From a candidate division FCPU426 bacterium (GTDB taxonomy: Bacteria; Oederibacteriota; JAAXVQ01; JAUVAV01), in NCBI GenBank assembly GCA_030591525.1, contig JAUVAV010000024.1, positions 1 to 49,761 of the forward strand: a stretch of 49,761 bases of DNA, in the 5' to 3' direction. The notes beneath the pieces were generated by a model. It did no database searches, had not been told where the DNA came from, and saw only the letters and a program-made list of their open reading frames with translations. Shown here piece by piece: positions 6,369 to 49,761 of the stretch (position 1 is the first letter of the stretch; the number at the start of each line of letters is the position of its first letter). Both the position numbers and the translations under genes were made by a program.

Positions 6369-6530
6369 ATTACATAAATCTCCCAACATTTGTTAAAACC
6401 CAAAACCAAAATAAAAATTTCACAAAGTGGAAGCAACCGGTTTTAAAACAAGCCTCAAATCACGGAATTGGTCCAAATGAAAATTGACCTTTAGGATGAT
6501 TTCATTTTTGTCATTGCCGGCCACACGGAT

Positions 6531-6608
6531 GTAGGGGCGTTTAATTAAACACCCCTACACAAATGATATACTTGCCACTCTGCTGGGCGACGCCTGCGTC
6601 GCCCCTAC
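6531..6608. repeat. Two GTAGGGG palindromes, the second supplying a stop codon
   Basis: Positions 6531-6558 form a near-perfect palindrome with arms GTAGGGGCGTTTAA and TTAAACACCCCTAC. A second palindrome follows at 6585-6604 (GGGCGACGCC and TGCGTCGCCC) and continues CTAC to 6608. The stop codon of the PorV-OmpA gene is the CTA at 6605-6607, that is, part of the repeat's right arm. The family recurs at 12475, 27691, 29841, 43512 and 48433. Confidence 0.75.
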
Positions 6609-8254
6609 TGGGTTACCACCTCAAAAGAAACCAATGATTTCCCCGGCTGCTTTCCCGGTTCTCCGCTTTTAGTGATAATATTCGTGTGCTTGATGCGATA
6701 GCGCATGGTCAGAAACCGGGCCACATACTTGGCGCGAGCCCCGGCCAATTCCGTATTATTTCCGGCATAGCCGATAATTGTAATCCGATCGTCAGGATAT
6801 CTCTCCAGCAGGCTCCCCATCTGAGCCAGGGCGCGTTTAGCCTCGGAGACAAATGTTGTCTTATCCCGCTTGAAGGTGATAGGCGGCAGCATTCCGGATT
6901 TAATCCGACTTGAAATCCGTTGCAATGATTTACGCAATTGCTGCTGCCGGATTTTTTTTGCATTGGCTTGCGCCGCCGATTTAGTTTTGGTTTCAACTCC
7001 GCTTGCAAGCTTTGGGATATTAGTTTCAGATTTAATACTGGTTTGGGGTTCTGATTCTGATCCTGTTCCTTCCTGGGCTGTTGCTTTCAAACCTTTACCT
7101 GGCTGCTTTTTCGGCTTTGCTTTTATTCCGGGTAAAACTCCGGCTTTGGTTTGGGAAGGCGGAAGCAGATCCGCGGTTGCGGCCCGGGAAGACACAGCGC
7201 TCTTGCCGGGCAGAAAAACCACGGTCAGCGAAACACGATGAACGGATCCCAGTTCACCGTAAGGAACAAATGCATAATCCAACTGATATTTTAGGCCTTC
7301 GGTGCTGACCGCAAACCCGGCTCCTGTCGTCAGTCCGGCCAGGCCATCCATATCCTTTATTTCATGGCCCAGCTTATAACCCGCTCGTACCGCAAATTCG
7401 GTATGCGGAGTAATATGGGCATACTCCCCTCCCAGGGAAATTTTCACTTGATTGTCGATAGGGATTAAAACATCCAGCCCTAAGGTCCCCCGGCCGTAGG
7501 GAGACAAAACCTCTTGGGCGAGATATCCCGCTCCGACGCGAAAATTGATAGGCATCAACTTATCCGAGGTCATACCCAGATTCTGCGCCACCAGGCCCAG
7601 GCGCCATCCTTTATCCTGCACTCCGGATTTATACTCTCCCTGCCAGCCGCCGATCCGGATTAACTCCTGGGATGATAACTGCTCGGTCTGCCGCCAGATC
7701 GCGCCGATGTCCAGCCCTCCGCCGAAAATATTGGCCTCGTCTATAGTTTCGCTGACGAGCCTTATTCCGGCGCCGACCAATACATTTTGCAGAAAAGGAG
7801 TTCCGGTAGGAAATATTCGGGAGAGTTTCTGGGAAAAAACGCCGACTAAAGCGATTTGCAAAGCCGAAGCTTGGCCGTCCGTACCGGCATAATTGCCCGA
7901 GACATCTTCCAGGGTTTTTTCAATAGTCCCCCCGCGTACCACAGTAATTCCGCCGCCGGCCGCACCCAGAGGTCCCAGCGGCATGCCAAAAGCCAGATAT
8001 TCGGTACCGATATCCTGTACCCAAAAAGTATGGATAAAACCAGCTGTTGGAGCGGTAAGCTGGACCAGGCCGGCGGGATTCCAGTAAAGAGTATCCAGCC
8101 CGTCGCCCAGGGCAATATACGTTTCACCCATGGCAGCCGGCCGGACGCCTTGCCCGGCTTTGAGGAAATTGGCGTTCGTAGTCCCAGGGCCGCCGGCTTC
8201 GGCCGTTGAGATTATGAGAAATACTATACCCCATATTGCAATATATTTTTTCAT
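6605..8254 (-). CDS. PorV/PorQ-type outer-membrane barrel fused to an OmpA-like domain
   Basis: The 549-residue protein has a signal peptide (MKKYIAIWGIVFLIISTAEA). It then shows the PorV/UPF0164 signature: GQGVRPAAMGETYIAL followed by LYWNPAGL, then Gly-rich amphipathic strands to about residue 340. A polar linker rich in Lys, Gln, Ala and Ser spans about 350-450. Residues about 455-549 look OmpA-like: ITFKRDKTTF, a following IGYAGNNTE segment, and ARAKYVARFL, which matches the usual helix of peptidoglycan-binding OmpA domains. The fusion would tie a barrel to the cell wall. The start is supported by GAGGTGAG upstream and a promoter at 8336-8364. The last codon and stop overlap a palindromic repeat, so the original C-terminus may have been altered. 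The 1437-6368 gene downstream carries a type IX-like C-terminal domain and could be a client. Confidence 0.82.
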   Translation of the reverse strand: MKKYIAIWGIVFLIISTAEAGGPGTTNANFLKAGQGVRPAAMGETYIALGDGLDTLYWNPAGLVQLTAPTAGFIHTFWVQDIGTEYLAFGMPLGPLGAAGGGITVVRGGTIEKTLEDVSGNYAGTDGQASALQIALVGVFSQKLSRIFPTGTPFLQNVLVGAGIRLVSETIDEANIFGGGLDIGAIWRQTEQLSSQELIRIGGWQGEYKSGVQDKGWRLGLVAQNLGMTSDKLMPINFRVGAGYLAQEVLSPYGRGTLGLDVLIPIDNQVKISLGGEYAHITPHTEFAVRAGYKLGHEIKDMDGLAGLTTGAGFAVSTEGLKYQLDYAFVPYGELGSVHRVSLTVVFLPGKSAVSSRAATADLLPPSQTKAGVLPGIKAKPKKQPGKGLKATAQEGTGSESEPQTSIKSETNIPKLASGVETKTKSAAQANAKKIRQQQLRKSLQRISSRIKSGMLPPITFKRDKTTFVSEAKRALAQMGSLLERYPDDRITIIGYAGNNTELAGARAKYVARFLTMRYRIKHTNIITKSGEPGKQPGKSLVSFEVVTQ

Positions 8255-8335
8255 AATACACTCACCTCATATGTCCACAGTCTATCACAAAATATGCAAT
8301 TAATCCAGCAATTTATTTCTTCTATTATATATTCT

Positions 8336-8364
8336 ATTATATATCAACCTAGGCGTTTGAGCAA
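8336..8364 (-). promoter_or_regulatory. Probable sigma70 promoter of the PorV-OmpA gene
   Basis: On the minus strand TTGCTC (8364-8359) precedes TATAAT (8341-8336) with a 17-base spacer. A second TATAAT at 8329-8324 has no partner at a proper distance. The leader to the ATG at 8254 is about 80 bases. Confidence 0.55.
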
Positions 8365-8403
8365 TTAGTCGGTTTTTTGAGAGGAGGTAATAGAAAGTAG
8401 ACC

Positions 8404-8480
8404 GCATTTGAGATATTTTATCTAATTTCCACTATCGAATCTCAAATGCTCTGGAGCCTGAGCAAATAATTGCTCAGGCT
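8404..8480. repeat. Paired inverted repeats with a GCTCAGGCT hairpin
   Basis: AGCCTGAGCAA (8455-8465) and TTGCTCAGGCT (8470-8480) form a perfect 11-bp stem with a 4-base loop. Next to it, GCATTTGAGAT (8404-8414) pairs with ATCTCAAATGC (8439-8449). The core AAATGCTCnGGCTCC is shared with the middle layer of the nested element at 25352-25521. On the coding (minus) strand no U tract follows the stem, so an intrinsic terminator is not supported. Confidence 0.6.
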
Positions 8481-8509
8481 TCTGGTTTTTAGGGGCATTT
8501 GTGTTGCTT

Positions 8510-8598
8510 TGTCACTCTGAACGCACTGAGAAATTTCCATGGAAACGTTTAATTCAAAATGATGTTCGGGAATTCCTCGCTAAGGCCCAGGAATGACA
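8510..8598. repeat. TGTCATTC-family inverted repeat, diverged copy
   Basis: Left arm TTGTCACTCTGAACGCACTG begins at about 8509. The right arm is GGCCCAGGAATGACA, ending at 8598. The inner portions match the family pattern (GAGAAATTTCC and GGGAATTCCTC). It lies downstream of the HAMP gene and is the most diverged of the five copies. Confidence 0.6.
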
Positions 8599-8666
8599 TA
8601 CACAAGTTTACAACATTGCAACAAAACTTCTCAAGCAGGAAAAAAATCCTTATTCCTCAATAGAAA

Positions 8667-9227
8667 CTAAACAATATAAAAATCCGCAATTTGTTCCGTA
8701 GTTTCCCGAATATACTTGATTTCCTCAATGATTTTGTCTTTCTCGGGTTTTCCGACATTTTTGGCCAGGGAATCCTCGATTACTCCCACGGCCTCCTGTA
8801 TATCTTTAAGTTTCTGGCGGTCCTGCCGGACCTGGCTTCTGACCTTATCCGTCATATCATTAAAAGCCGACTCCAACTCCCTCATTTCATCGCCTTTCCG
8901 CAAATTAACCTGGATCTTGAAATTACCGTTTGCCAGTTCGCGGATGCACATAACAAAACGGAAAAGAGGACCGGCTACTTTGTGGGACAGATAAACGCCC
9001 ACTGTTATATTGCATAAGGTGAGAAAAAGAATGATCGCCAGTACAACTTTATAAATAAAATAAATATTCGCGCCCGGAATATCCGGCTTGGGCTGGGAAA
9101 AAACGTATAACAGAGCCAGTCCTACAATGACCATTTCTACAAACATGGTAAAAATCAAAACCAGCGAGTACTTAAATTGCAGATCCATATTAATGTAAAT
9201 CTGTTTTCTTTTAAATGTCTGAGCCAC
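8667..9227 (-). CDS. Small two-helix membrane protein with a HAMP domain
   Basis: The 186-residue protein starts at GTG 9227, with GAGGTG just upstream. It has two hydrophobic helices at about residues 20-45 and 58-82 with a short outer loop (FSQPKPDIPGANIYF). A HAMP-like segment follows: VAGPLFRFVMCIRELANGNF, then a DEMRELESAFNDM motif. The end is a coiled coil (about 130-186) with no kinase, GGDEF or methyl-accepting signalling domain. It resembles the N-terminal half of a chemoreceptor and is a clear relative of the 36010-36537 protein. It may pass a membrane signal to a partner or be a structural element of the surface apparatus. A weak promoter candidate is TTGAAT (9316-9311), 17 bases, TAAGAT (9293-9288). 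Confidence 0.8.
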   Translation of the reverse strand: MAQTFKRKQIYINMDLQFKYSLVLIFTMFVEMVIVGLALLYVFSQPKPDIPGANIYFIYKVVLAIILFLTLCNITVGVYLSHKVAGPLFRFVMCIRELANGNFKIQVNLRKGDEMRELESAFNDMTDKVRSQVRQDRQKLKDIQEAVGVIEDSLAKNVGKPEKDKIIEEIKYIRETTEQIADFYIV

Positions 9228-9360
9228 TTTTTCACCTCACATTTATTTAATATTATAGTATTTTTTTATATTCTTTTATATGCAGGCATCTTATCCGCTT
9301 CGCAGATATAATTCAACTTAAATTTGCTTGTTTTCTTTCCACGAGTTTTACCATCCCCTG

Positions 9361-10641
9361 CTATTCCAGCATCTCCACGGGCGAGACCCCCAAAGGAAGA
9401 ATGCTTTGGATATTAACAAAAATATCCGCTGATTTTTTAGTCCCGCCGGAGGCGTCTACCACTGCCAAGGTTACTTGGTACCTTCCATCCGGCATGGGAT
9501 TAGTATTATCCAGCAACCCGTCCCAAACCACATGATCCGGAGGCGAACCCTCCCCGGAGTATTTCTTTACCAGGGTTTTGGCTTCATTCCGGATTTCCAG
9601 GCTCCAAATCCGCAAGGGAAATTTGGTTTGACAATTTATCTTCAAGACCGATACCTTATTGATGCCCACCGGCGAAAAGATTTCAGGCTCAGCTTTCACA
9701 TCCATGATAAATCCGCCGAAGTAGTAGGACAGGGCCACCTTATGCATTATCTCCACGGTTTGGAAGATTGGGAACCCCAGAGCATAGTCCAGCTGAAATC
9801 CCTGGTATTGATAACCCGCGCCCATTCCTATCTCCGTATCATCAATTCCCGCCCGTAAAAACAGGCGGGGTATGGGCGAAACTTCCAGTCCCAGGCAGAG
9901 CTTGACCACATCCTGCTCCAGGTTCTTCGCAACGTCCAGATCTGCTTTTACTTTATCTTCAAAAACCTTCACCCCCACCCCTAATACCAGGTTCATGGGA
10001 TATTGTTCCTTTTCCTCTTTTAATTGAATTGCCGGAGCCAGCAGATTCCGGAATGTAAGACCCGTATTTAAAAACGGCCAGGGATGGTACATGAGGCCGG
10101 CATCCAGTCCGAAGCCGGTTCCCGAGATATTCATCAAGGTCTGGCTTACGATTTTCAAAGTTCCTCCGGCGGCCAGCTGGGGCGTGATATCCGATCCAAA
10201 ACCCAGCATAACGCCCAATTGGTTATGGGTAAAACTCTCGAGTACTTCATTATAAGAACTGCGGCCTTCGGCCTCGCCCTGATTCAGAAAAATCAAGCCC
10301 ACGCCGAGAGTGCCGATATAGGGAAGAATATGGTTGTAACCCAGATACTGGTAATTATTTCCATCTACCAGGGAGACGTACTGCACTATGACCTGGTTCT
10401 GCGTCAGGGCGGAAAGCCCGGCCGGATTCCAATACACTGCTGTGGCATCATCCGCCAAGCCGGTAAAGGCCCGGCCCATGGCCATGGCCCGGGCTCCGGC
10501 GCCATATGTCAGAAAAGCTCCGGGTTGTCCGGCATCGCCTTCCCCTGCCTTGGCCGGCGCCGGGAAAAAAGCCGCCGCGATCAGCAGGCCGGCCATGCCG
10601 AGCTGAAATACGCTTTGTTTTAGCAACCGCCTGGTTCTCAT
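9361..10641 (-). CDS. PorV/PorQ-family outer-membrane barrel with FlgD-like C-terminal domain
   Basis: The 426-residue protein has a signal peptide (about residues 1-32, ending FFPAPAKA). The PorV signature follows: GAFLTYGAGARAMAMGRAF, then VYWNPAGLSAL. Alternating strands suggest an outer-membrane barrel to about residue 310. The last 100 residues are an Ig-like FlgD-type domain: IWSLEIRNEAKTLVKKY, HVVWDGLLDN, and DGRYQVTLAVVD. Its ATG overlaps the stop of the upstream gene by four bases (ATGA), so the two are translationally coupled. That upstream gene encodes a secreted protein with a PNPFNP-type C-terminal domain, making this a likely barrel-cargo pair. In Bacteroidota PorV is the shuttle of type IX secretion; here this is inference from family and position. 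Confidence 0.83.
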   Translation of the reverse strand: MRTRRLLKQSVFQLGMAGLLIAAAFFPAPAKAGEGDAGQPGAFLTYGAGARAMAMGRAFTGLADDATAVYWNPAGLSALTQNQVIVQYVSLVDGNNYQYLGYNHILPYIGTLGVGLIFLNQGEAEGRSSYNEVLESFTHNQLGVMLGFGSDITPQLAAGGTLKIVSQTLMNISGTGFGLDAGLMYHPWPFLNTGLTFRNLLAPAIQLKEEKEQYPMNLVLGVGVKVFEDKVKADLDVAKNLEQDVVKLCLGLEVSPIPRLFLRAGIDDTEIGMGAGYQYQGFQLDYALGFPIFQTVEIMHKVALSYYFGGFIMDVKAEPEIFSPVGINKVSVLKINCQTKFPLRIWSLEIRNEAKTLVKKYSGEGSPPDHVVWDGLLDNTNPMPDGRYQVTLAVVDASGGTKKSADIFVNIQSILPLGVSPVEMLE

Positions 10642-12320
10642 TTCAGCACCCCCACCCGGCGTTTAAATTTCTGAGCCCCGGAACTTCCCCGCGCCGTGAT
10701 TTTAACCAGGTATATGCCATTGGCCACAATCCGCCCCTCGCCGTTTCGTCCGTCCCATTCCCAGTACGCGCCCCCGGCCGCAGTGGCATTCTGAGAGACG
10801 GAGTCTGCCGCGGTTTCACTTATATCCCGGGACAGTACCAGGCGGCCGAACGCGTCATAAATCCTGATCTCGACATTGCCACGGCTGTTTAAATAATAAT
10901 TTATGGAGGTTTTCTGGTCCTGGGCCGGATTAAACGGATTGGGATAATTAAGAATCGCTCCCGGCTGAGGCGGAGCCACGGATACTTTAACCGGCATTAT
11001 AGTCTCGGCATAAAGATGCTGCGTGACTGAATGTTCGGCCCGCACCCGGATACGGGCTTCCTCATTGACCACACCTCCGGTAAAATTGCAATACGCGTTT
11101 CCGTTTAGATCCGTGGCAGTCTGACTTACTGAAAGAAAACCGCTGCCCGAGACCTGGTCAAATTTTACTATGAAAGAATGGAGAGTGCTCCGGGTGGGAT
11201 TGCCATGCTGGTCCAGGATATGCGCCGTGATGTGCGTAGTGTGCTGGGCTTGCACCTCGGCCGGATCCAGTGTGGTCTGGATTGCTGCAGGAACATTGGG
11301 CAGTACTTCAATAGGCGTAGTAGAAACGCCGATTAGGGAAATTGATCCGCCGCTGGTTTTCTCGCCGCATAAATAGATGGACTCGGCCCGGTCGTAGGTA
11401 AAATCATCGCGGGAAAGTTGTCCATTGACCATAGTAAGATTCTCACTCGGGCCTCCCCAATTTCCCGAGGCCGGATCCGAAGTGCCGGATAGATAGCGGT
11501 TTATCTTGAACGTATCGCTGTTGGTGGTAAGCACCTGGTCCGGATCCCCCGGGCTGCTGGAAACCGTGGCGGTTAGTGCAAAGGGCGCACCAGCCGTAAT
11601 CTGGGAAGGCACTTTAAGATGCAGCCAGGCCACGGAAGCGGAATCTGAGTATACTTGTTTAGTATTACTAAACGGATCCGGAGAAGTAAAGGAAGTAGTA
11701 ATGAGTCCGGTCATAGTCAAGCGAAGAGTAAAAAAAGCCCGGCCGTCGCTGGTATTAAATGAGGCCGGCGTGATTTCGGCGCCTACGCCGGAACTATCTA
11801 TAGAAGTCATGAAACTCTTGTTCCAATTCCAAAGATCATCCACCACGTAAACCGTGACCGGATGATTAACGCCCTCTATAAGGTGAACGGGCTCGGTCGG
11901 GGTTACTCCCGGGGCAAACCCCGGAGTATGCGTCTCGCCCGGCACTAAAATCAAGAGCTGCGTTCCCAATCCGGCATAAACAGTGGTAATCGTGTTTCCC
12001 GTGGCTCCGCCATCCGTGCAGGTAAGCACTACTTCATCATCCGCTGCAAAAAACTTTACAGCCCCTTTCCATTCACCACCGGAGAAGTTCCCGGAAACTG
12101 TCGGCGACACAGTTCCGGGGTGAGGGCTGACAGTAAAATTAACCGTGCCGGTATAACCACCGTCCGGGCTAGGGCCAGTAAAAGCGTTTATTGTCACTCC
12201 CAGATAGTCGCCGGCCGTCCCGGAATCATCTATTTCGATTTTAAAAGAGTCTGCTGCTGACGCGCTCAAAGGCAGGCCCAAAAGTAAAATAAAAAGCAGA
12301 GTTTGAATAACACGTTTCAA
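10638..12320 (-). CDS. Secreted Ig-like protein with type IX/FlgD-like C-terminal domain
   Basis: I start at TTG 12320 (560 residues). A GTG at 12329 also opens the frame, but GAGG touches that codon, whereas it sits eight bases from the TTG. From the TTG the protein begins MKRVIQTLLFILLLGLPLSA, a clean signal peptide. Residues about 25-440 are beta-rich domains, including invasin-like segments such as DLNGNAYCNFTGGVVNEEAR. The C-terminal 90 residues start NYPNPFNPAQ and contain VEIRIYDAFGRLV, YWEWDGRNGEGR and ANGIYLVKI, ending KFKRRVGVLK: a FlgD fold of the type used as a sorting domain in type IX cargo. The stop overlaps the start of the PorV barrel gene 9361-10641. Confidence 0.82.
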   Translation of the reverse strand: MKRVIQTLLFILLLGLPLSASAADSFKIEIDDSGTAGDYLGVTINAFTGPSPDGGYTGTVNFTVSPHPGTVSPTVSGNFSGGEWKGAVKFFAADDEVVLTCTDGGATGNTITTVYAGLGTQLLILVPGETHTPGFAPGVTPTEPVHLIEGVNHPVTVYVVDDLWNWNKSFMTSIDSSGVGAEITPASFNTSDGRAFFTLRLTMTGLITTSFTSPDPFSNTKQVYSDSASVAWLHLKVPSQITAGAPFALTATVSSSPGDPDQVLTTNSDTFKINRYLSGTSDPASGNWGGPSENLTMVNGQLSRDDFTYDRAESIYLCGEKTSGGSISLIGVSTTPIEVLPNVPAAIQTTLDPAEVQAQHTTHITAHILDQHGNPTRSTLHSFIVKFDQVSGSGFLSVSQTATDLNGNAYCNFTGGVVNEEARIRVRAEHSVTQHLYAETIMPVKVSVAPPQPGAILNYPNPFNPAQDQKTSINYYLNSRGNVEIRIYDAFGRLVLSRDISETAADSVSQNATAAGGAYWEWDGRNGEGRIVANGIYLVKITARGSSGAQKFKRRVGVLK

Positions 12321-12342
12321 ATCACTCACCTCTTAAAAATTA

Positions 12343-17315: not shown

Positions 17316-18377
17316 CTACTTTAGCGGCTTAATCCGGTGGATAATTTGATTCCTTATCTCGTTGATGGGATAAATCCCATCCGCCACCCCCGCCTCCTGC
17401 ACGGCTTTCGGCATGCCATAAACTACGCTTGTCTCTTCATTCTGCACTATGATTGTACCGCCCTTTTCCTTCATCATAACCGCGCCGTGGGTTCCATCCC
17501 GCCCCATGCCGGTTAATACCACGGCCAGCGTATTGTGTCCGAAGAGTTCGGCCACGGATTCCATGGTTACATCTGCGGACGGACGGACGCCGTAGCGCGT
17601 TGGTCCCTGGTGCAACTTGATTATTTCCCGCCCGTTCTCGTTGACGACTATCATATGATGTTTGCTCGGAGCCAAATAAACCTGGCCGGCCAATATAACG
17701 TCTCCCTCCTCCGCCTCCTTGACGTGCAATTCACTTACCTGATCCAGGCGTTTGGCCAGCAGATGAGTGAATCCCGGAGACATGTGCTGCACCACCAGCA
17801 CAGCGGCTGGAAAATCAGCCGGCAGCCCGGGAATGACTTCGTATAGGGCCCGCGGCCCGCCCGTGGAACTGGCAATCACCACGACCTGCTGGCCGGCTAC
17901 TAAAGCATGGAATGCCGGTATACTTTTTTTGAATTTTTCGAATTCCAGAAATTTAAGCCGGGAAACCTCAACGTGGGCTGCTATGCGTACCTTGGCCACA
18001 AGGCTGTCCGCCACCTCAGCCATATCCAGACTGATAGGCCCCGAGGGTTTGGAAACAAAATCAACCGCCCCGTACTCCAAGGCCTTCATAGTAGTCTTTC
18101 CGCCGCTTTCGGTATAGGCTGAGAGTATAACTACCGGGGTGGGACACTCGCTCATAATATAACCCAAGGTTTCCAGACCTGCCAACCTCGGCATTTCAAT
18201 ATCCAGGGTGAGTACGTCGGGTTTATAATCCGTTACTTTTTGTATGGCATCCAGACCGTCCCGGGCCGTAGCCACCACTTCCATGTCTTCGGCTTTATTC
18301 AGGATGGCGCTAATGGTCTTTCGCATGAAAGCGGAGTCGTCGGCCACTAAAACCTTGATGAGCTTCTGGGATTCCAT
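17316..18377 (-). CDS. cheB: Chemotaxis response regulator and protein-glutamate methylesterase CheB
   Basis: The 353-residue protein has an N-terminal receiver domain with D13/D14, phospho-acceptor D59 (LTLDIEMP) and K109. The C-terminal methylesterase has its catalytic triad at S171 (ASSTGGPR), H198 (VQHMSPGF) and D294 (GMGRDGTHG), spaced as in characterised CheB. It removes methyl groups from chemoreceptors and deamidates them when phosphorylated by CheA. It is the last gene of the chemosensory run, 18 bases after a cheY. No CheA or methyl-accepting receptor is visible in the window, so its substrates are encoded elsewhere. Confidence 0.95.
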   Translation of the reverse strand: MESQKLIKVLVADDSAFMRKTISAILNKAEDMEVVATARDGLDAIQKVTDYKPDVLTLDIEMPRLAGLETLGYIMSECPTPVVILSAYTESGGKTTMKALEYGAVDFVSKPSGPISLDMAEVADSLVAKVRIAAHVEVSRLKFLEFEKFKKSIPAFHALVAGQQVVVIASSTGGPRALYEVIPGLPADFPAAVLVVQHMSPGFTHLLAKRLDQVSELHVKEAEEGDVILAGQVYLAPSKHHMIVVNENGREIIKLHQGPTRYGVRPSADVTMESVAELFGHNTLAVVLTGMGRDGTHGAVMMKEKGGTIIVQNEETSVVYGMPKAVQEAGVADGIYPINEIRNQIIHRIKPLK

Positions 18378-18395: not shown

Positions 18396-18761
18396 TTACT
18401 TCGCCAGTGCCCGTTCGACCGCTTCAATCACCCGCGGAGGCTGGAAAGGCTTGATTACAAAATCCTTGGCCCCGGCCGCAATGGCTTCTATCACCATGGC
18501 CTGCTGACCCATGGCGCTGCACATGATAATTACCGCGCGGCTGTCAAATCCAATAATCTCCTTCACCGCCTCAATCCCGTTAACCTCCGGCATAATGATA
18601 TCCATGGTTGTCAAATCCGGCCGCAACTGCTTGTACATTTCCACCGCCTCGCGCCCGTCTTTGGCCTCGCCGACAATTTCAAAATTTTGCTTGGTAAGGA
18701 TTCCCCTAATCATCACCCGCATGAAAGCGGCATCATCGGAAATGAGGATTTTAGCTGGCAT
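18396..18761 (-). CDS. cheY: Single-domain response regulator, CheY type
   Basis: The 121-residue stand-alone receiver has acidic pair D9/D10, phospho-acceptor D54 (TTMDIIMPEVNG), conserved Ser in CSAMGQQ and K104 (FVIKPFQPP). There is no output domain. The pattern SDDAAFMR and CSAMGQQ is typical of Thermotoga/Bacillus-type CheY. Its ATG overlaps the cheW stop by one base (TAATG). A second cheY lies at 20427-20798; the two share most motifs but differ in surface residues, so they may address different targets. Confidence 0.93.
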   Translation of the reverse strand: MPAKILISDDAAFMRVMIRGILTKQNFEIVGEAKDGREAVEMYKQLRPDLTTMDIIMPEVNGIEAVKEIIGFDSRAVIIMCSAMGQQAMVIEAIAAGAKDFVIKPFQPPRVIEAVERALAK

Positions 18762-19294
18762 TAATCTTCCTCCTGGTTTTGATTGCTTGGCATTTCCGGT
18801 TCCCTGCCCGTCAAGCTTTTGAGGGGAACCTCTTCAATTTGTTGCGTTTCCTGCTGGGAAAGAATCTTTTCAAAATTCAATAGTATAATGATACGGTTAC
18901 GCAGTTTGGCAATTCCATTCAGATATTCTCCGCCAATGTCGGCAATCATGGGCGGCGGCGGTTCAATGGCATCCAGCGGCACGCTGATAACCTCCGTGAC
19001 CGAATCCACGATCATGCCCAGAACCTGATTCTCTATCTCTACTTCCATAATACGTTGCTGGCCCACCGGTGTATTCAGGGGAAGATCAAAGCGCTGCCGC
19101 AAATCCAAAACCGGCATTACTTTGCCCCTTAGGTTAATCACACCTTCAATAAATTGGGGAGCACGCGGTACCCGGGTGATTTCCACCATGCGCAAGATTT
19201 CTTGCACCTGCTGAATGGGCGCCCCGAATTCTTCATCCCCCAACCGAAAAACCACAAATTTCATCTCATTTTTTATTGTTTGTTTTGCATACAT
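18761..19294 (-). CDS. cheW: Chemotaxis coupling protein CheW
   Basis: The 177-residue CheW fold opens KFVVFRLGDEEFGAPIQQVQ and contains the hallmark FIEGVINLRGKVMPVLDLR and the GMIVDSVTEVISV segment. CheW links receptors to the CheA kinase. The last 35 residues (after FEKIL) form a polar tail rich in Gln and Glu that normal CheW lacks. ATG 19294 is used, although the ribosome site is weak; an internal ATG at 19264 would remove ten residues and start at the conserved fold. A second CheW domain occurs in the fusion protein 23407-24048. Confidence 0.92.
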   Translation of the reverse strand: MYAKQTIKNEMKFVVFRLGDEEFGAPIQQVQEILRMVEITRVPRAPQFIEGVINLRGKVMPVLDLRQRFDLPLNTPVGQQRIMEVEIENQVLGMIVDSVTEVISVPLDAIEPPPPMIADIGGEYLNGIAKLRNRIIILLNFEKILSQQETQQIEEVPLKSLTGREPEMPSNQNQEED

Positions 19295-19299
19295 GGTAA

Positions 19300-19803
19300 T
19301 TATATATCCCGTTCTCCGGCCAATGCGGTTCGGACGCGCATAATACCGCTCTCCGCAAAAAATTCCACTGAGCGCCCCGCATTCCCGCCGGTATCTTCCC
19401 CCACCACCGGAATCCCGGTCTGCTCCAATTGCTCCTTGACGGCCATCACGTTGCGTTGCCCCACCTTTAAATTCCCCTCCACGGCAATCGTCCCCGCAAT
19501 GATAAACATGTTGGCTCCTCCGACTATCTTCGCTTGGAGCTGTTGCTTGGCAATCCCCAGTCTTGCAAAATTTTCAAGCATAAGCCTTAGCGCCGTATCG
19601 GCAAACTTTGCGGGATTGGTATCTTGACGAAACCGTAACTGTTTGGAATCCGGAAGCATGATATGCGCCATGGCCGCAGTCTTGGTTTTTTCATCCCGCA
19701 AACCCAAACCTACGCATGATCCCAAACCGAAAGTAACCAGGATATCCTGGCTCCGGGCCAGTTTCCAGTCTGCCATTCCCACTTTAATTCTATCCAATGT
19801 CAA
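19300..19803 (-). CDS. cheD: Chemoreceptor glutamine deamidase CheD
   Basis: The 167-residue protein matches CheD, which deamidates receptor glutamines and binds CheC. The catalytic residues fit the family spacing: T24, C30 (TFGLGSCVGLGL) and H47 (MAHIMLP). GGANMF and the NVMAVKEQLEQTGIPV segment are also typical. The gene starts with TTG, at 19803 or at 19797, where GGAG is nine bases upstream. Either start overlaps the end of cheC, so the two partners are translated together. This fits their known physical complex. Confidence 0.92.
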   Translation of the reverse strand: MTLDRIKVGMADWKLARSQDILVTFGLGSCVGLGLRDEKTKTAAMAHIMLPDSKQLRFRQDTNPAKFADTALRLMLENFARLGIAKQQLQAKIVGGANMFIIAGTIAVEGNLKVGQRNVMAVKEQLEQTGIPVVGEDTGGNAGRSVEFFAESGIMRVRTALAGERDI

Positions 19804-20422
19804 CCACTCCGGAAGTTTTTTGAATGACCGCGGTCATCGTCTCCAAAGCATTTTCTTCCGGTATCAGGAAAAAACTCCCCGAAATCTTGGTCTCAGTCTC
19901 TATAATTTCAGTCCGGAGCATTAAGGCATACCGATTCTCCTGGGAAAGTTCTGCCAATATAGTATCGAGAACTGCGGTAAAACTGTCAATGGCTAAAGCC
20001 GGCACGGAAGGAATCATGCGCAGGTCAAGAAATTTAGACATGGCATTCAGGTAGGCCCCGGATAATATGGTACCCAGTTCCTTCAAGGCGGACAGCTTTA
20101 GTTCATCCAGCGTGGAACCGGTTCCGACGGGCTGGTTCAGCATTAGGTCCGTAAGGCTTAACAGGTCTTTATACGGAAAAGTAACTAGTATCTTGGAGGG
20201 CACATCACCGTAAACCTCCAAATAAATACCCGCGACGGTTTCCTCCATGTCACCCACAATTTCGGGCACTCGCTCTATGGGAATGATCATAACCTCGGGA
20301 ACGGACATATTAATTGTCCGTCCGACCAATTGGGAAAGCGCCGTAGCGGCGTTCCCGGAACCAATATTCCCCAACTCTTGAAAAGCATCCCGGTAAAATT
20401 CGTTCAAACGGCTGGAATCCAT
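19790..20422 (-). CDS. cheC: CheY-P phosphatase CheC
   Basis: The 210-residue CheC/FliY-family phosphatase normally has two E-x2-N-x22-P active centres. The first is intact: E16, N19 and P42 (ELGNIGSGNAATA). The second has E115 and P141 at the right spacing, but threonine (T118) replaces the asparagine (KELGTILSGAYLNAM), so this centre may be weak or inactive. CheC dephosphorylates CheY-P and is stimulated by CheD, which is the next gene and overlaps by 14 bases. GAGGAG eight bases before the ATG supports the start. There are two cheY genes on either side of the cheC-cheD-cheW block. Confidence 0.92.
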   Translation of the reverse strand: MDSSRLNEFYRDAFQELGNIGSGNAATALSQLVGRTINMSVPEVMIIPIERVPEIVGDMEETVAGIYLEVYGDVPSKILVTFPYKDLLSLTDLMLNQPVGTGSTLDELKLSALKELGTILSGAYLNAMSKFLDLRMIPSVPALAIDSFTAVLDTILAELSQENRYALMLRTEIIETETKISGSFFLIPEENALETMTAVIQKTSGVVDIG

Positions 20423-20426
20423 TCAA

Positions 20427-20798
20427 TCACTCCTCTTCGCGTTCGACTTTTTGGATAGCTTCAATGACACTACTGGGTTGGAAAGGTTTAACAATGAAAT
20501 CCCGCGCTCCGGCTTGCATGGCTTCCACTACCAGGGCTTGTTGTCCCATAGCACTGCAGATAATAATTTTGGCGTCTCGATCCAGTTCGATGATTTTTTT
20601 CACCGCCTCAATCCCGCCCATCTCGGGCATGATTAAATCGATCAGGACAATCTCCGGTTTAATCTCTTGGTAGGTTTTCACCGCCAGCCGGCCGTTTTCC
20701 GCCTCACCCACCACCTCATAACCATGACTGCTCAAAACATTCCGCAGCATCATACGCATAAATGACGCATCATCCACGATTAAAATTTTAGTGCCCAC
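20427..20798 (-). CDS. cheY: Single-domain response regulator, CheY type (second copy)
   Basis: I choose the GTG at 20798 (123 residues, starting MGTKILIVDDASFMR). GGAGG lies just upstream of it, and a longer frame from ATG 20825 only adds nine residues (MNQQGGELK) that encode that ribosome site. Phospho-acceptor D54 (LIDLIMPEMGG), acidic pair D9/D10 and K104 (FIVKPFQPS) are present. No DNA-binding or enzyme domain follows. It lies five bases before cheC, its probable phosphatase. Its output partner may be the TPR proteins or the envelope machine upstream, but that is inference. Confidence 0.92.
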   Translation of the reverse strand: MGTKILIVDDASFMRMMLRNVLSSHGYEVVGEAENGRLAVKTYQEIKPEIVLIDLIMPEMGGIEAVKKIIELDRDAKIIICSAMGQQALVVEAMQAGARDFIVKPFQPSSVIEAIQKVEREEE

Positions 20799-20836
20799 TT
20801 TTAATTCTCCTCCCTGCTGATTCATTCCTTCATCAG

Positions 20837-21175
20837 CTATAGTGCCGCTTCTCCGGTCTCTCCGGTACGCAAACGCACCGTCTCTTCTACCGGCAAAACA
20901 AATAATTTCCCATCCCCCAGCCGTCCGGTCCCTACCGTAGTCTTCAGCTGTTGAATGGTCTTCCCGGTTTGCTCATCCGGCAACACTATTTCTAACATAA
21001 TTCGATGCTGAATATCAACCCTGTAATTCGGGTTTACTTTATTCTTCAACTGAGAACGATGGATGCCGAAACCCCTGACATCGTAAATAGTCATTCCTTG
21101 AATTCCCTTATCCAGCAGGGCCTGCTTAACCGCTTCCAGTTTCTCCTCCGGAATAATACACTTTATCAGTTTCAT
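20837..21175 (-). CDS. PII-family (GlnB-like) signalling protein
   Basis: The 112 residues align without gaps to E. coli GlnB. Y51, the uridylylation tyrosine, is kept (NYRVD), as are G37, K90 (LGDGKLFV), R101 and R103 (RLRTGE). Differences are concentrated in the T loop: Q39 is replaced by His, and residues 38-50 (IHRSQLKNKVNPN) do not resemble GlnB or GlnK. Classical PII proteins bind ATP/ADP and 2-oxoglutarate and touch nitrogen targets through the T loop. Here no amtB, glnA or glnD lies nearby; the gene sits between a TPR gene and cheY inside the chemosensory run, so it may deliver a metabolic input. GGAG seven bases upstream supports the ATG. Confidence 0.85.
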   Translation of the reverse strand: MKLIKCIIPEEKLEAVKQALLDKGIQGMTIYDVRGFGIHRSQLKNKVNPNYRVDIQHRIMLEIVLPDEQTGKTIQQLKTTVGTGRLGDGKLFVLPVEETVRLRTGETGEAAL

Positions 21176-21202: not shown

Positions 21203-23410
21203 TTAACGAATTATCCGTTCCTGCCGGGCTCCCGGGGCATAACAAAAATGCTCCCTCCAATCCTGGATGGACCGCACTTTTTCCGCAGCCCGCATGGCGG
21301 CTTCGGTATTGGGCGCCAGCTTAATAAATAATTCCCAAACCGCAATGGCTTCATCCCACCAGTTACGCCGGCTGTATATTCGTGCCAAACGGTCATGTAC
21401 CTCTATATGTTTCGGATTTAAATCCAGGGTCCGGCAGTATGCCACTTCGGCTTCATCCAGCCAAGCCTTTTGGAAATAAACCTCCCCGAGATAATAATGC
21501 GCGTCGGGGTAATGGGGATTCAAGGCCACGGCCCGCAGTAAAACCGTAAGCGCCTCGTCCAATCTCACGGTTTTTTTATAAATCAGCCCCAGGTTAGTGC
21601 AGGCTTCCACATATTGGGGATTAATCTCCAGCGCCCGTTGGTATTCCCGGATGGCTTCTTCGAAACGATCGGTATTCCGATAGACATTTGCCAGATCATA
21701 GTGGGCGGCGGAATTTTCCGGATTCGCTTTAATATCCGCCTGCAATTTTTCAATCGCCTCATTAAAAATTTCCTTCTTTTTGGCGGCGGCCGTTAAATTA
21801 TGCCGGGCAGTTTCGTAATCCGGTTCAATTTCCAGCGCCCGTTGAAACTCTTCAATGGATTTGTCATAAATGCCGTTCTGATAGTAAACCACCCCCAGAT
21901 TGTTATAAGCCTTGGCATACTGCGGATTAAGCGCTATGGCCCGCCGGTATTCCTCTTGGGCATCGTCAAAATTCCCCGCACTTTTATAGGCCATGCCCAG
22001 GGAATTGTGGGCGATGGCATTGTCCGGATCAAGCACCAGGGCTTTCTGATATTCAATAATCGCTTCTTCAAAGCGGCCTTTTTCGGCCAGGGCCAGTCCC
22101 AAGTAAATATTGGCCTCACTATCCTGAGCGTAACCCGGTGAGAGCTCGACCGCCCGGCGGAATTCCTTCACCGCTCCGTCAAAATTATTATGGCGGTAAT
22201 AATAAATACCCAGTTGGTAATGGGCGGCGGCATAATGAGGATTTTTGGCAATCGCCCGTTCGATCTCGGTAATTGCCTTCTCCACCTTCCCGTGTTTGTA
22301 ATAGATAATACCCAGTTCATAATGGCCGCGGACATTGTCCGGTTCGTTCTGGAACACTTTCCGCAACTGATCCTCGGCCTCGTCAAAAAGCCCCTGCTGA
22401 CGATAAACAATTCCGGCATTGATATAGGCCTCGGTACATTTCGGGTCAACCTTTATCGCCTGGCGGAACTCCGCCAGCGCTTCCGGCAGCTTTTTAATCT
22501 CAAAATAAATTTCCCCCAGGTTATTTAGAAGTCCGGCATCATGGGGCTGCGCCTCTGCCGCCTTCCGGTACTGTTGCAGCGCTTCATTCAACAACCCCTT
22601 AAGCCGATAGACCTTGCCCATTTCCCGGTAAGCCGCGGCGGAATCGGTTTCCGGGGCGGCCCCGGGAGCTTCACCCTCAAGCGAAACCTCCTCCCCGGAC
22701 CGATAGTAATCAATCGCCAGATTAGTCGAGGACTGGGCATAACCGGGATTGATCTCAACCGCCCGCGCGAATTCTCTTTCCGCTTCCAGATTCATGCCTT
22801 TATCGCCATACGCAAAACCCAGATTATAATGCCCTACGGCAAATTCCGGGTTAATCTCAATAGCGGTTGAAAATTCTTTGATAGCCTGATCGTAAAGCCC
22901 CTTATTATAAAAAACCTCCCCCAGGGTATTATGCAGTTCGGCAAAATGGGGCGCCTGTTCAATGGCTTCTTGCAAAATTGCTATCGCCTCTTCAAACCTT
23001 CCCATACTTTTATATACGATGCCCAGGGCGTTCAAGGCAAAAAGATGGGAAGGAGTGATTTCTATGGCCTGCTTATATTCTGCGATCGCCTGCTCATAAC
23101 GTCCGGTATACCTAAAGGCATTACCAAGATTATAATGCGCTTCCGCATCTTCCCGGTACATCTCACTGGCCCGCTGGTAGGCTCCGATGGCGCGGTCATA
23201 AATACCGGTGTTTTTATTCACCGCCTGGAGATTCTCCATGGCTTGCGTCATGTTATGATCAATTTCCAACGCCCGTTTGAATTCCTTAACCGCCTCAACA
23301 TACATCCCCTTGGAGTAGTAAAAAACTCCCAGATTATTATGCGCTGAGGCATCATTTTGATCTATGCCATATTCAAATTCGGGCATACTCCGGTCATCGT
23401 CTTCGCTCAT
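21203..23410 (-). CDS. Large TPR protein within the chemosensory operon
   Basis: This 735-residue protein is almost wholly made of tetratricopeptide repeats of 34 residues (about 19-20), with the pattern A-x-x-N-L-G-x-x-Y and A-x-x-P as in NLGVVYYQNGIYDKSIEEF. There is no signal peptide or membrane helix, so it should be cytoplasmic. A short linker with SLEGEAPGAAPET near residue 230 divides the repeat array. The last 30 residues form a basic tail. Its ATG overlaps the stop of the MshEN-CheW gene by four bases, which argues for co-production. TPR stacks serve as protein-docking scaffolds; in this setting it may organise CheW/CheY partners. The function is not known. Confidence 0.85.
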   Translation of the reverse strand: MSEDDDRSMPEFEYGIDQNDASAHNNLGVFYYSKGMYVEAVKEFKRALEIDHNMTQAMENLQAVNKNTGIYDRAIGAYQRASEMYREDAEAHYNLGNAFRYTGRYEQAIAEYKQAIEITPSHLFALNALGIVYKSMGRFEEAIAILQEAIEQAPHFAELHNTLGEVFYNKGLYDQAIKEFSTAIEINPEFAVGHYNLGFAYGDKGMNLEAEREFARAVEINPGYAQSSTNLAIDYYRSGEEVSLEGEAPGAAPETDSAAAYREMGKVYRLKGLLNEALQQYRKAAEAQPHDAGLLNNLGEIYFEIKKLPEALAEFRQAIKVDPKCTEAYINAGIVYRQQGLFDEAEDQLRKVFQNEPDNVRGHYELGIIYYKHGKVEKAITEIERAIAKNPHYAAAHYQLGIYYYRHNNFDGAVKEFRRAVELSPGYAQDSEANIYLGLALAEKGRFEEAIIEYQKALVLDPDNAIAHNSLGMAYKSAGNFDDAQEEYRRAIALNPQYAKAYNNLGVVYYQNGIYDKSIEEFQRALEIEPDYETARHNLTAAAKKKEIFNEAIEKLQADIKANPENSAAHYDLANVYRNTDRFEEAIREYQRALEINPQYVEACTNLGLIYKKTVRLDEALTVLLRAVALNPHYPDAHYYLGEVYFQKAWLDEAEVAYCRTLDLNPKHIEVHDRLARIYSRRNWWDEAIAVWELFIKLAPNTEAAMRAAEKVRSIQDWREHFCYAPGARQERIIR

Positions 23411-24048
23411 GACATCTCAGCCGCCTTTCCCGGGTCAGCCGGCCAGGTCATCTCCACCATGATATTGGTCAATTGCAATAAAGTAATCAGCCGTTTCTCC
23501 GTTTTACCGACGCCGTAAATATAACGGGGATTTATACGCTGCAGGCTCCCCGGGTTGCTTTCGATGTGTTCCATCGGCAATTGCATAACCGATTCCACGC
23601 TGTCGACTACCAGACCGTATATCTGGGAGGCGGATTCCACGACGATAATCCTGGTATCATCGTTTACCGGACCGGACGGCAAACCCAGCCGCCGGGATAA
23701 ATTCACTATCGGTATAATGGCCTCACGGTGCTGTAATATTCCCGCAACAAATTGCGGCATGCTCGGCAATTTATTAACTTCCCGCCACCGGATGATTTCA
23801 CGCACGAAAAGCGCTTCAAAAGCAAAATCCTCTTTCCCTAAATGGAAAATAACCACCAGCAGCCCATGCAGCGCCTGCAGCACATCCTGCTCGCTGATAA
23901 AACCCATCCGAATCATAATTTTTCCCAACGGTTCGGCGCTGCGCTGTTGCTCCTGCAGCGCCCGGCTTAGTTCATCTTTTTTAATCATTCCGCTTTGCAA
24001 CAGCAGTTCACCCAGAGACCGTTCCTGCCTTCTTTCGATAAAAGCCAT
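23407..24048 (-). CDS. MshEN (GspE N-terminal type) domain fused to a CheW domain
   Basis: This 213-residue protein has two parts. Residues about 10-62 match the tandem MshEN motif: LGELLLQSGMIKKDELSRAL, then LGKIMIRMGFISEQDVLQAL. MshEN domains of type II secretion/pilus ATPases bind c-di-GMP. Here the first motif has Ser where Arg usually precedes LG, so binding is uncertain. Residues about 65-200 are CheW-like: LVVIFHLGKEDFAFEALFV, a FVAGILQHREAIIPIVNLSR hallmark, and YGLVVDSVESVMQL. The gene is coupled on both sides to TPR genes (overlap of four bases downstream, six bases upstream gap). It may couple c-di-GMP or a docking signal to the chemosensory array. Confidence 0.86.
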   Translation of the reverse strand: MAFIERRQERSLGELLLQSGMIKKDELSRALQEQQRSAEPLGKIMIRMGFISEQDVLQALHGLLVVIFHLGKEDFAFEALFVREIIRWREVNKLPSMPQFVAGILQHREAIIPIVNLSRRLGLPSGPVNDDTRIIVVESASQIYGLVVDSVESVMQLPMEHIESNPGSLQRINPRYIYGVGKTEKRLITLLQLTNIMVEMTWPADPGKAAEMS

Positions 24049-24054
24049 GACTTT

Positions 24055-25221
24055 TTATCCTTTTATGAATTTAATGTTGTTGCGCAAAATTTCGTTATTC
24101 GGGTCCATGGCCAAAGAAGTTTCCCAGGCCTGCAAAGCCTGCTCGCTCTCTTTCTGCTTATAATATATATTTCCCAGCTTCAGATACGCCTCGACATGGC
24201 TGGGTTCCAGCTTGATCACGGTTTGGAATTCCTTTATGGCCCGGTCATACTCACCAATGCGGTATAAAAGATTGGCCAATCCCAGGTGCAGGCTGACATC
24301 GGACATCATTCCCAAAGCTTGTGCATATTCTCGCAAAGCCTGCTCGACGTCGTTCTGCTGATCGTAGATAAAAGCCAGCATTTTGTGAAGGTTGGCGTCA
24401 TGCGGATTGATTTCCAAAACCTGCTTATATTCCTTAACGGCTTCTTCCCGCTTTCCCATTTGGGCGTAAATCTGTCCCAGCTGAGTATGCGCTTCCACGT
24501 TCAGGGGATTGATGTTTAGGGTCTCTTGCAGATAAGCCAGGGCTTCTTCCCAGCGTCCCATTTTCGTCAACAGGATTCCAAAATTCTGTAATCCCACGGC
24601 ATCCCGGGGATTGATTTCTATAACCCGCCGGTAGGCGGCTTCCGCCTCTTCAAACTTTCCGTTTTTAGTATGTATGCCGGCGATGATGTTATAAATTCCG
24701 GCATGCCGAGGATTTATCCGGAGGGCCGATTCGTAGGCGGTTACCGCTTCCGCATAATCCCCCTGACTTTCCAGGATATACCCCAATTTGAAATAAACCT
24801 CGGAAAGGTTGGGATTGATCTGCAAGGCCGCTTGATACTCCTTTTTGGCCCCGTCCAACTTTCCCTGTTTATAATAAACGTCTCCCAGATTATTATGAAG
24901 TCCCGAGTCCTGGGAATTAAGCTCCAGGACGTTCCGGTATTCTTCAATCGCCTCTTCCAACCGGCCGGTATTGGTATATATCAGTCCCAGTTTGCAGTGA
25001 GCATTTGCATGCTCGGGATTGGTGTTTAATACCTGCTGGTACTCTTCCACCGCCTGCTCGTACTTTCCAACATTCGAGTATAGCACCCCCAGCTGGAAAT
25101 GAACCTCGGCATCATGAGGATCTATCCGGAGCGCCTTCTCGAATTCATGAATAGCCTCCTTATACTTGCGGTTCAAGGAGAAGGCTATGCCTAAATTAAT
25201 ATGGTCTTGAATGCGTTCCAT
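24055..25221 (-). CDS. TPR protein within the chemosensory operon
   Basis: I start at ATG 25221 (388 residues, MERIQDHINLGIAFSLNRKY), where the first TPR begins. A TTG at 25293 also opens the frame, but it would add 24 residues without homology and begin next to the repeat element. About 11 TPR units follow, in the same style as the 735-residue protein (HCKLGLIYTNTGRLEEAIEE). No export signal is seen. It is followed six bases later by the MshEN-CheW gene. Upstream lies a 370-base gap of nested repeats, so this gene may begin its own transcript or be read through from cheR. Confidence 0.83.
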   Translation of the reverse strand: MERIQDHINLGIAFSLNRKYKEAIHEFEKALRIDPHDAEVHFQLGVLYSNVGKYEQAVEEYQQVLNTNPEHANAHCKLGLIYTNTGRLEEAIEEYRNVLELNSQDSGLHNNLGDVYYKQGKLDGAKKEYQAALQINPNLSEVYFKLGYILESQGDYAEAVTAYESALRINPRHAGIYNIIAGIHTKNGKFEEAEAAYRRVIEINPRDAVGLQNFGILLTKMGRWEEALAYLQETLNINPLNVEAHTQLGQIYAQMGKREEAVKEYKQVLEINPHDANLHKMLAFIYDQQNDVEQALREYAQALGMMSDVSLHLGLANLLYRIGEYDRAIKEFQTVIKLEPSHVEAYLKLGNIYYKQKESEQALQAWETSLAMDPNNEILRNNIKFIKG

Positions 25222-25294
25222 GGCAACCAGCTTTCCCGTAGTTAAAGCCCTGCCGCTAAAGATACTGTCTCCAATAAGCTTTTTCTCCCTCAAA

Positions 25295-25593: not shown

Positions 25594-26385
25594 TCATATC
25601 CGTTGGTAAATACGCTCGCGAATATTCAGAGTTTGATATTTATTCCGCATCTCGCCTAAAAGCGTCTCGGTTTTTCCCAGGATTAAAAACCCGCCCGGCG
25701 CCAAACACCGGTGAAATTCCCTAAACAATTTTTCCTGCAAAGCCCGCACAAAATAAATCAGTACATTACGGCAAACCACTAAATCAAAGGGCCCGCCGGG
25801 AATCGGGCCGGTCAAATCATGCCGCTTAAAGTCTATCCGGCGCTGGAGTTCTGGTTTTATCACCCAATCATCATTTTCCTGCCGGAAATATCGAGGTATA
25901 AAATCCTCTGGAAGAGTAGCTAACGCCCTGGCCTTGTAGACCCCTTTACGCGCCCGCTCTAAGCATATGGGATCAATATCCGTGGCTAATACCCTGACCT
26001 GGCAAAGCTTGGGCAATTCTTCCCGCAGCAATATTGCCAGGGAATAAGGTTCTTCGCCGTTGGCGCAGCCGGCGCTCCAAACACGCACGCTTAAATTTCG
26101 GCGCCAAGCCGGAAGCACTACCTGCTTTATTTGTTGATATACGCCGGGATCCCGATAAAACTGGGATACATTTATGGTTAAACGATCCAGCAACCTGTCA
26201 TATTCCTCCGCATCCCGCTCCAAAAATTTCCGATAGGCTTGATAAGTATTTTGCTGCGTAGCGCGCATGCGAACGTTTAATCGTCGTTTAAGATAACAGA
26301 TTTTATACTGCCGGCAATCCAGCCCTTTTTCTTTCAGCACCAGTTGCAGCAAAGCTTCAAATTGATCCTGGTTTTCATATATCAT
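25594..26385 (-). CDS. cheR: Chemotaxis protein methyltransferase CheR
   Basis: The 263-residue protein has the all-helical N-terminal CheR domain (about 1-75, ending TINVSQFYRD). The S-adenosylmethionine-binding domain follows: VWSAGCANGEEPYSLAI, VLATDIDPICLERAR, and FDLVVCRNVLIYF. It methylates receptor glutamates and opposes CheB. Its ATG overlaps the stop of the upstream secreted-protein gene by four bases, directly tying the chemosensory run to the envelope block. The usual CheR motif N-E-T-x-F-F-R reads N-V-S-Q-F-Y-R here. There is no TPR tail, although TPR genes follow. Confidence 0.93.
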   Translation of the reverse strand: MIYENQDQFEALLQLVLKEKGLDCRQYKICYLKRRLNVRMRATQQNTYQAYRKFLERDAEEYDRLLDRLTINVSQFYRDPGVYQQIKQVVLPAWRRNLSVRVWSAGCANGEEPYSLAILLREELPKLCQVRVLATDIDPICLERARKGVYKARALATLPEDFIPRYFRQENDDWVIKPELQRRIDFKRHDLTGPIPGGPFDLVVCRNVLIYFVRALQEKLFREFHRCLAPGGFLILGKTETLLGEMRNKYQTLNIRERIYQRI

Positions 26386-48497: not shown

Positions 48498-49761
48498 TCA
48501 AATCCGCCGGCAGACTCGATTTCTTCCATTTCTCTTGGCCTCATATAATGCTTCATCCGCCCGTTGAATTATGCCCGGCACTGTATCCTCTTCTCCGCCT
48601 ATAAATGAAGTTACACCCATGCTTATGGTAACGTTTACGGTTTTCCCATTATAAGTATATTTGGATATTTCCACCAACTTCCGCAATTTTTCCGCTACTA
48701 TTAGGGCTTCCTTGATCACCGTTTCGGAGAGGATAACTCCAATTTCTTCCCCACCATACCGGCCGACAATGTCAGTCTCCCGGGTCTCCTCCCTGAATAT
48801 CCGGGCGGTTTGCGACAACACTTTATCACCCAGCAGGTGACCATAGGTGTCATTAAAAAGTTTAAAATGGTCTATGTCTATCAGTATAAAGGACAGAGCG
48901 TGATTATAGCGTTTCGTCCGTTTGATCTCTTTTTCCATGGCATTTATAAGGTAGCGCCGGGTATATAACCCGGTCAGGTTATCCCGCTGGTGACTAATTT
49001 CGCGCTGTTTAACGTTTTGCTTAAAAAAATAGAACATTTGATTCATGATATTGGCGACCTGCTGAGTAAAGGCAAATTCCCGAGCCTCAAACTTGATATC
49101 ATAATTACCCATGAAAATATCCTTCAGGCTATGCTCGATTCCGCGAATCGCTTTTACCATCCGCCTTCCCAGGACCAGCGTGATCAGCCATAATAAAAAG
49201 ATCAGGAGAAGAACCAAAGGCATTCCCATCACTGCGGAAAGCCGGCCCAAGCGAACCCAACTTTTCGTCAGATCGAAGCAGAAGAGATATTTTTTCCCAC
49301 TCAATTGATATTTCCAAAGCGGCCAAGCGGACGGAATCAACCTGACCCGACCTTCGGATCCGGCCGGCACCCGTTCGAGCTCAGCCACCATTTGGGAAGG
49401 ATGGAAACCGGCGTTGGCAGGATGTCCCCAGAAATAATAAATTCTTTTGGTATGGTCATACCAGATCAGGAACTCCAAGCCCGGCAGGCGAATTAGTTGA
49501 CCGGCAAGTAGAGACGGCACCGAAATCATTTCATGCTGAGCCGGTTTTTTCAGAGATGAAGCCTTGTCGCCATTATCGGATATCGGCAGGTCGGCCCAGG
49601 GCGGCGTGGAACCCCCGGCCGGCCGTGCATTCACCGTCTCCGGCCACCAAATACTATCGGTCCGCTCCCGTACCATCTGCCGGCACCATTGATCGAAAAT
49701 ATACCCAGCGCCGACGGCCCCCAGTACCACACCAAGTAAAATTACCAGGGTAAAATACCCC
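48498..49761 (-). CDS. Membrane diguanylate cyclase (GGDEF), N-terminus cut by the window
   Basis: The frame stays open through the window edge (preceding codons read GYFTLVILLGVVLGAVGAGY, a membrane helix), so the GTG at 49730 is probably internal and the gene starts outside. About 420 residues are visible: a first helix, an outer domain of about 130 residues (KRIYYFWGHPANAGFHPSQ), and a second helix (MPLVLLLIFLLWLITLVLG). A HAMP-like linker and a C-terminal GGDEF domain follow, with DNLTGLYTRRYL, DIDHFKLFNDTYGH and the active GGEEI. The inhibitory-site RxxD (RETD) lies five residues before GGEE, so product feedback is expected. It makes c-di-GMP, which could act on the MshEN-CheW protein or on surface-protein production. 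Confidence 0.9.
   Translation of the reverse strand, partial: GYFTLVILLGVVLGAVGAGYIFDQWCRQMVRERTDSIWWPETVNARPAGGSTPPWADLPISDNGDKASSLKKPAQHEMISVPSLLAGQLIRLPGLEFLIWYDHTKRIYYFWGHPANAGFHPSQMVAELERVPAGSEGRVRLIPSAWPLWKYQLSGKKYLFCFDLTKSWVRLGRLSAVMGMPLVLLLIFLLWLITLVLGRRMVKAIRGIEHSLKDIFMGNYDIKFEAREFAFTQQVANIMNQMFYFFKQNVKQREISHQRDNLTGLYTRRYLINAMEKEIKRTKRYNHALSFILIDIDHFKLFNDTYGHLLGDKVLSQTARIFREETRETDIVGRYGGEEIGVILSETVIKEALIVAEKLRKLVEISKYTYNGKTVNVTISMGVTSFIGGEEDTVPGIIQRADEALYEAKRNGRNRVCRRI

Follow-up and report, generated by a model that had tools for sequence, protein, structure and literature searches.

An MshEN_N-type domain fused directly to CheW, a candidate entry point for c-di-GMP into the chemosensory array of Goldbacteria/FCPU426

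What could a domain related to the c-di-GMP-binding part of pilus ATPases be doing on a chemotaxis coupling protein? This question is raised by one gene in the window analysed here (the whole stretch of 49,761 nucleotides from a candidate division FCPU426 bacterium), in which the following features were assigned to the fusion protein:

23407..24048 (-): MshEN-CheW gene, 213 aa, ATG start
23860..24018 (-): MshEN_N-type domain, aa 11-63 of the fusion protein (NCBIfam NF053729, hmmsearch, fold match)
23458..23856 (-): CheW domain, aa 65-197 of the fusion protein (PF01584, Foldseek)

The N-terminal part reads ...SLGELLLQSGMIKKDELSRALQEQ-QRSAE-PLGKIMIRMGFISEQDVLQALHGL... and is followed by CheW; its two motifs of 24 residues each (aa 11-34 and aa 40-63) are separated by the canonical 5-residue spacer (aa 35-39). 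Both domain calls of the sequence-only reading, an MshEN domain in front of a full CheW, proved correct. The NCBIfam model NF053729 (c-di-GMP_motif, MshE-related) scored 61.2 bits over aa 12-61 (curated cut-off 38), and Pfam CheW (PF01584) scored 114.4 bits over aa 65-197 (curated cut-off 23.5; E 4e-33). The MshEN-CheW protein was not among the matches of the Pfam MshEN model PF05157, whose only match in the genome of the window was a PilB-like ATPase. In addition, a profile built from the N domains of the fusions matched 5htl (hmmsearch, E 1e-11) as well as PilF and PilB structures. Structure prediction, the check on which the MshEN call had been said to depend, returned the four-helix MshEN fold: AlphaFold, run with 26 orthologues, gave a four-helix N part and a CheW fold with a mean pLDDT of 83. 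Foldseek aligned 51 columns of the N part with 5htl (c-di-GMP-bound MshE) at 0.9 Å (0.9-1.3 Å across the 5htl superpositions) and superposed it on Thermus thermophilus PilF GSPII-B at about 1.0 Å; the E-values were weak (0.007 to 0.1) because the MshEN_N domain is short, with a probability of 1.00 and a concordant sequence profile. The CheW part matched the CheW structures 2qdl, 8c5v and 2ch4 (E 1e-10 to 1e-15), and R108, an Arg in the receptor-contact stretch of CheW, is invariant in 26 of 26 fusions. An MshEN_N-type four-helix domain thus sits directly on the N-terminus of CheW, which starts at aa 63-65 and is joined without a linker. The MshEN_C subdomain is absent (Pfam, AlphaFold model), and Pfam found no receiver domain, so the protein does not have the CheW-plus-receiver composition of CheV. 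The same domain order was found in 26 orthologues, which excludes a chance fusion. A proposed capping of helix 1 by Ser11-x-x-Glu14 in a ligand-ready state was abandoned because the two models place the beginning of helix 1 differently, at residue 12 for the whole protein and at residue 2 for the isolated domain.

Full-length MshEN-CheW proteins were found in 27 of the 45 Goldbacteria/FCPU426 genomes (155-291 bits), and none of the matches listed in 339 genomes outside the phylum spanned both domains; a divergent fusion may exist outside the phylum, beyond the weaker matches listed for those 339 genomes. A further 195 genomes of one other phylum gave no match at E 1e-33, a strict threshold with no positive control inside the set. 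A contig scan with the single protein as query gave no matches, and an alignment-based scan, resting on one narrow motif, matched the phylum only and is uninformative on other phyla. N-terminal extensions in L035 and L046, at one point taken for TPR fusions, turned out to be low-complexity out-of-frame sequence. In a tree of MshEN domains, built on 55 columns only, a single branch (97/90 support, recovered in 98% of the bootstraps) separated the CheW-fused domains from the PilB MshEN domains, and the sequence comparison shows a single origin of the fusion in the phylum. It also shows the MshEN part to be more strongly constrained than the CheW part: mean pairwise identity was 58% for the former and 35% for the latter (49.5% for plain CheW), and within one family these values were 95% and 66%. 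Two genomes of the same order as that of the window (G006 and G007, family f2), both of which have flagellin genes, keep the operon except for MshEN-CheW, which is cleanly absent from between TPRa and TPRb (L103 = G006:C89 and L104 = G007:C152), and a remnant was sought at both loci and not found. The gene is therefore dispensable, and since it occupies that position in families that are more distantly related, loss in f2 is the simpler reading.

The fusion is encoded within a chemosensory operon, whose other genes in the window are:

25594..26385 (-): CheR methyltransferase (PF01739, PF03705)
24055..25293 (-): TPRa, the TPR protein directly upstream of MshEN-CheW
21203..23410 (-): TPRb, the TPR protein directly downstream of MshEN-CheW
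20837..21175 (-): P-II family protein of the che operon, conserved across the phylum (PF00543, alignment)
20427..20825 (-): CheY1 receiver protein
19790..20422 (-): CheC phosphatase
19300..19803 (-): CheD
18761..19294 (-): plain CheW, the other coupling protein
18396..18761 (-): CheY2 receiver protein
17316..18377 (-): CheB methylesterase

Across the phylum the order is CheR-TPRa-MshEN-CheW-TPRb-P-II-CheY1-CheC-CheD-(MCP, several families)-CheW-CheY2-CheB-(CheA-CheC); it is kept in nearly all loci, with intergenic gaps mostly of a few bases, and in the window the MshEN-CheW gene begins 6 bp after the TPRa gene and overlaps the TPRb gene by 4 bp. The f14 genomes have CheR-TPRa-MshEN-CheW without TPRb, and in two genomes, L037 and L041, these same genes stay together but are not followed by TPRb or the remainder of the operon. 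Furthermore, families f7, f10 and f16 include eight loci (L039:13374-14780, L040:12200-13582, L042, L043, L044, L045, L047 and L048) in which the gene immediately preceding CheR encodes a membrane HD-GYP phosphodiesterase whose HDIGK and HHExxDGxGYP motifs are intact. Over 24 aligned loci the operon P-II keeps the TGRxGDGK and RTGE nucleotide-binding stretches and has a T-loop unlike that of GlnB; the genome of the window has three P-II genes besides this one, and the array may be informed of nitrogen or energy status through the operon P-II. Next to the chemosensory genes, the stretch 1437-12329 (-) encodes proteins of the PorV family and proteins with type IX secretion sorting domains.

The genome of the window holds one CheA, two CheW, 4 MCPs, a PilB with MshEN, PilT and about 15 GGDEF domains, and a search for flagellin in it found none. 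CheA, CheC and an FtsA/PilM-like gene adjoin on another contig (L077:7619-12422, G000:C33), away from the main che operon, and L042 has a similar FtsA/PilM-like gene after CheA-CheC. Flagellin was found in only 4 of the 45 genomes of the phylum, a lineage that is mostly unflagellated and bears type IV pili. The diguanylate cyclase that the sequence-only reading had pointed to in the same window is present as a GGDEF gene, but it is uninformative because it lies 24 kb away in a genome that has about 15 of them, and it was dropped as support for a link to c-di-GMP. Its product (48498-49730 (-)) has GGEEI in place of GGDEF/GGEEF, and its activity is uncertain.

We compared the ligand-contact positions, in the numbering of V. 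cholerae MshE (PMC5013675), between 26 aligned fusions and 30 PilB MshEN domains of the phylum. The contacts L10, G11, L29, Q32 and G40 (L12, G13, L31, Q34 and G42 in the fusion) are kept in all 26 fusions, and the changes are conservative at L25 (L27; L/I/V), L39 (L41; L/I/F), L54 (V56; I/V) and L58 (L60; L/M). The Arg9 position carries S, T or G in every fusion versus R, K or L in 28 of the 30 PilB domains, and the Gln61 position L, M or I in every fusion versus Q in 29 of 30; since the PilB domains keep both residues and all 26 fusions have replaced them, exactly two ligand contacts have been given up. The Gln61 position, Leu63 in the protein of the window, is the junction with CheW, so that half-site 1 keeps G13 and Q34 (fusion numbering) and half-site 2 is without its Gln. 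The Arg38 position is Pro in 23 of the 26 fusions (Pro40 in the window), as it most commonly is in the PilB domains of the phylum. Arg (or Lys or Leu) at each motif start together with Gln61 is a combination that the fusions do not have. The earlier doubt over ligand binding, raised from Ser11 at the Arg9 position, was thus well placed; the replacements at Arg38 and Gln61 had been overlooked.

Published mutants cut both ways on what these changes would cost. In MshE, mutation of R9 or Q32 lowers binding at most about fivefold, hydrophobic positions cost more than tenfold and the Gly mutants show little or no binding, L10, G11, L29 and G40 being the residues whose mutation costs most (PMC5013675). 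In PilF, the Arg-free GSPII-B binds c-di-GMP at 6 nM, GSPII-C, with Pro at the start of motif II, at about 460 nM, and the K167L variant at 2 nM, so Arg is not required (PMC11731258). Single Q-to-E changes in PilF cost 77- to 158-fold and binding by GSPII-B is abolished when both Gln are changed (PMC11731258), of which the fusion retains one; T. thermophilus GSPII-A, in which motif II begins with Ser and neither Gln is kept, does not bind (PMC12002112). With Arg dispensable and the loss of Gln costly, the odds that the MshEN_N of the fusion binds c-di-GMP would be about even.

The claim that the fusion brings c-di-GMP control into the array is therefore partly supported and has to be weighed against other readings. 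In its favour, the residues that are costliest to mutate and Gln32 are invariant or conservatively kept, the related PilF GSPII-B binds without Arg (PMC11731258), and an HD-GYP gene adjoins the operon in the eight loci named above; against it, R9 and Q61, kept by the PilB MshEN domains of the phylum, are replaced in every fusion. This same loss of two contacts in all 26 members underlies the chief rival, a serious one that we nevertheless consider somewhat improbable: MshEN_N may have lost nucleotide binding and become a docking module for protein partners of the array, for example the TPR protein of the adjacent gene or the type IV pilus machinery. Docking would fit the constraint on the whole N domain, which includes the invariant non-pocket residues Q8, E53 and G62, and the persistence of CheR-TPRa-MshEN-CheW in L037 and L041; a related domain is carried by the pilus ATPase, and the N-domains of PilB bind PilZ in Xanthomonas (7lkm and others). 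However, all 26 fusions retain G13, Q34 and G42 (fusion numbering), which correspond to residues that contact the ligand in MshE, the non-binding XpsE domain deviates at several positions of this kind (PMC5013675), and the partner is hypothetical.

The asymmetry of the pocket, with Gly and Gln kept in one half-site and Gln lost from the other, could suit an asymmetric ligand, and MshEN binds cGAMP weakly (PMC5013675); re-tuning to cGAMP or another guanine nucleotide is nonetheless unlikely in a genome in which canonical c-di-GMP enzymes are plentiful. The absence of the gene from G006 and G007 would also fit an N domain that is an inert remnant on an otherwise ordinary second CheW, but such a remnant is very improbable, given that no other part of the protein is as well conserved as this domain (58% versus 35%).

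The reading that we prefer, with a probability of about one half, is that of an accessory, CheV-like coupling protein of the single array, whose MshEN_N takes a cytoplasmic signal, most likely c-di-GMP at altered affinity. The CheW part would take places in the CheA-P5/CheW rings beside plain CheW, and MshEN_N would receive the signal, its affinity having been altered by the replacement of Arg9 and Gln61. Ligand binding would shift MshEN_N against CheW, because helix 4 runs straight into strand 1 of CheW via the invariant Gly62, and in this way would alter receptor-CheA coupling. The output in most members would be surface motility by type IV pili, given the small number of genomes with flagellin. 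A broader version, which we hold only tentatively and as clearly less probable than the accessory coupling role itself, is that c-di-GMP adjusts the coupling of receptors to the kinase phylum-wide, being sensed in an MshEN_N pocket that has no Arg and in which the junction with CheW closes the second half, with a dedicated P-II alongside that possibly informs the same array of nitrogen or energy state.

c-di-GMP meets chemotaxis at CheR through MapZ and also at motors, and a coupling protein with an MshEN domain would be a different entry point. Entry at the chemoreceptors is already known from Cbp1 and Tlp1, which resemble the present case in bringing c-di-GMP into the array itself and differ in doing so through a PilZ domain on the receptor (PMC6454048), whereas here the candidate entry is the coupling protein. 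Like CheV, a CheW-receiver fusion, the protein would act as an extra coupling protein that bears a regulatory domain, but its input is an N-terminal MshEN_N in place of the receiver, and it is not a CheV. With the MshEN/GSPII domains of the MshE, PilB and PilF ATPases (PDB 5HTL, 8PDK) it shares the two 24-residue motifs, the 5-residue spacer, the four-helix fold and the Leu, Gly and Gln32 contacts, and with many PilB proteins of the same phylum and PilF GSPII-C the Pro at the start of motif II; it differs in being without MshEN_C and ATPase, in the replacement of Arg9 and Gln61 in all members and in having CheW as the carrier. Fusions of MshEN to CheA, CheX, REC and HD-GYP were named by Wang et al. 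2016 (PMC5013675), and those likewise join MshEN to chemosensory or signalling parts; CheW is a different partner, absent from the main text of that paper, and our search of the main texts of open-licence papers found no description of MshEN-CheW.

Lastly, the phylum offers a natural series in which the fusion has been kept for the age of the phylum with two fixed pocket changes and with clean natural deletions in two genomes, and its PilB MshEN domains, in which both residues are kept, provide the comparison set for the pocket changes of the fusion.
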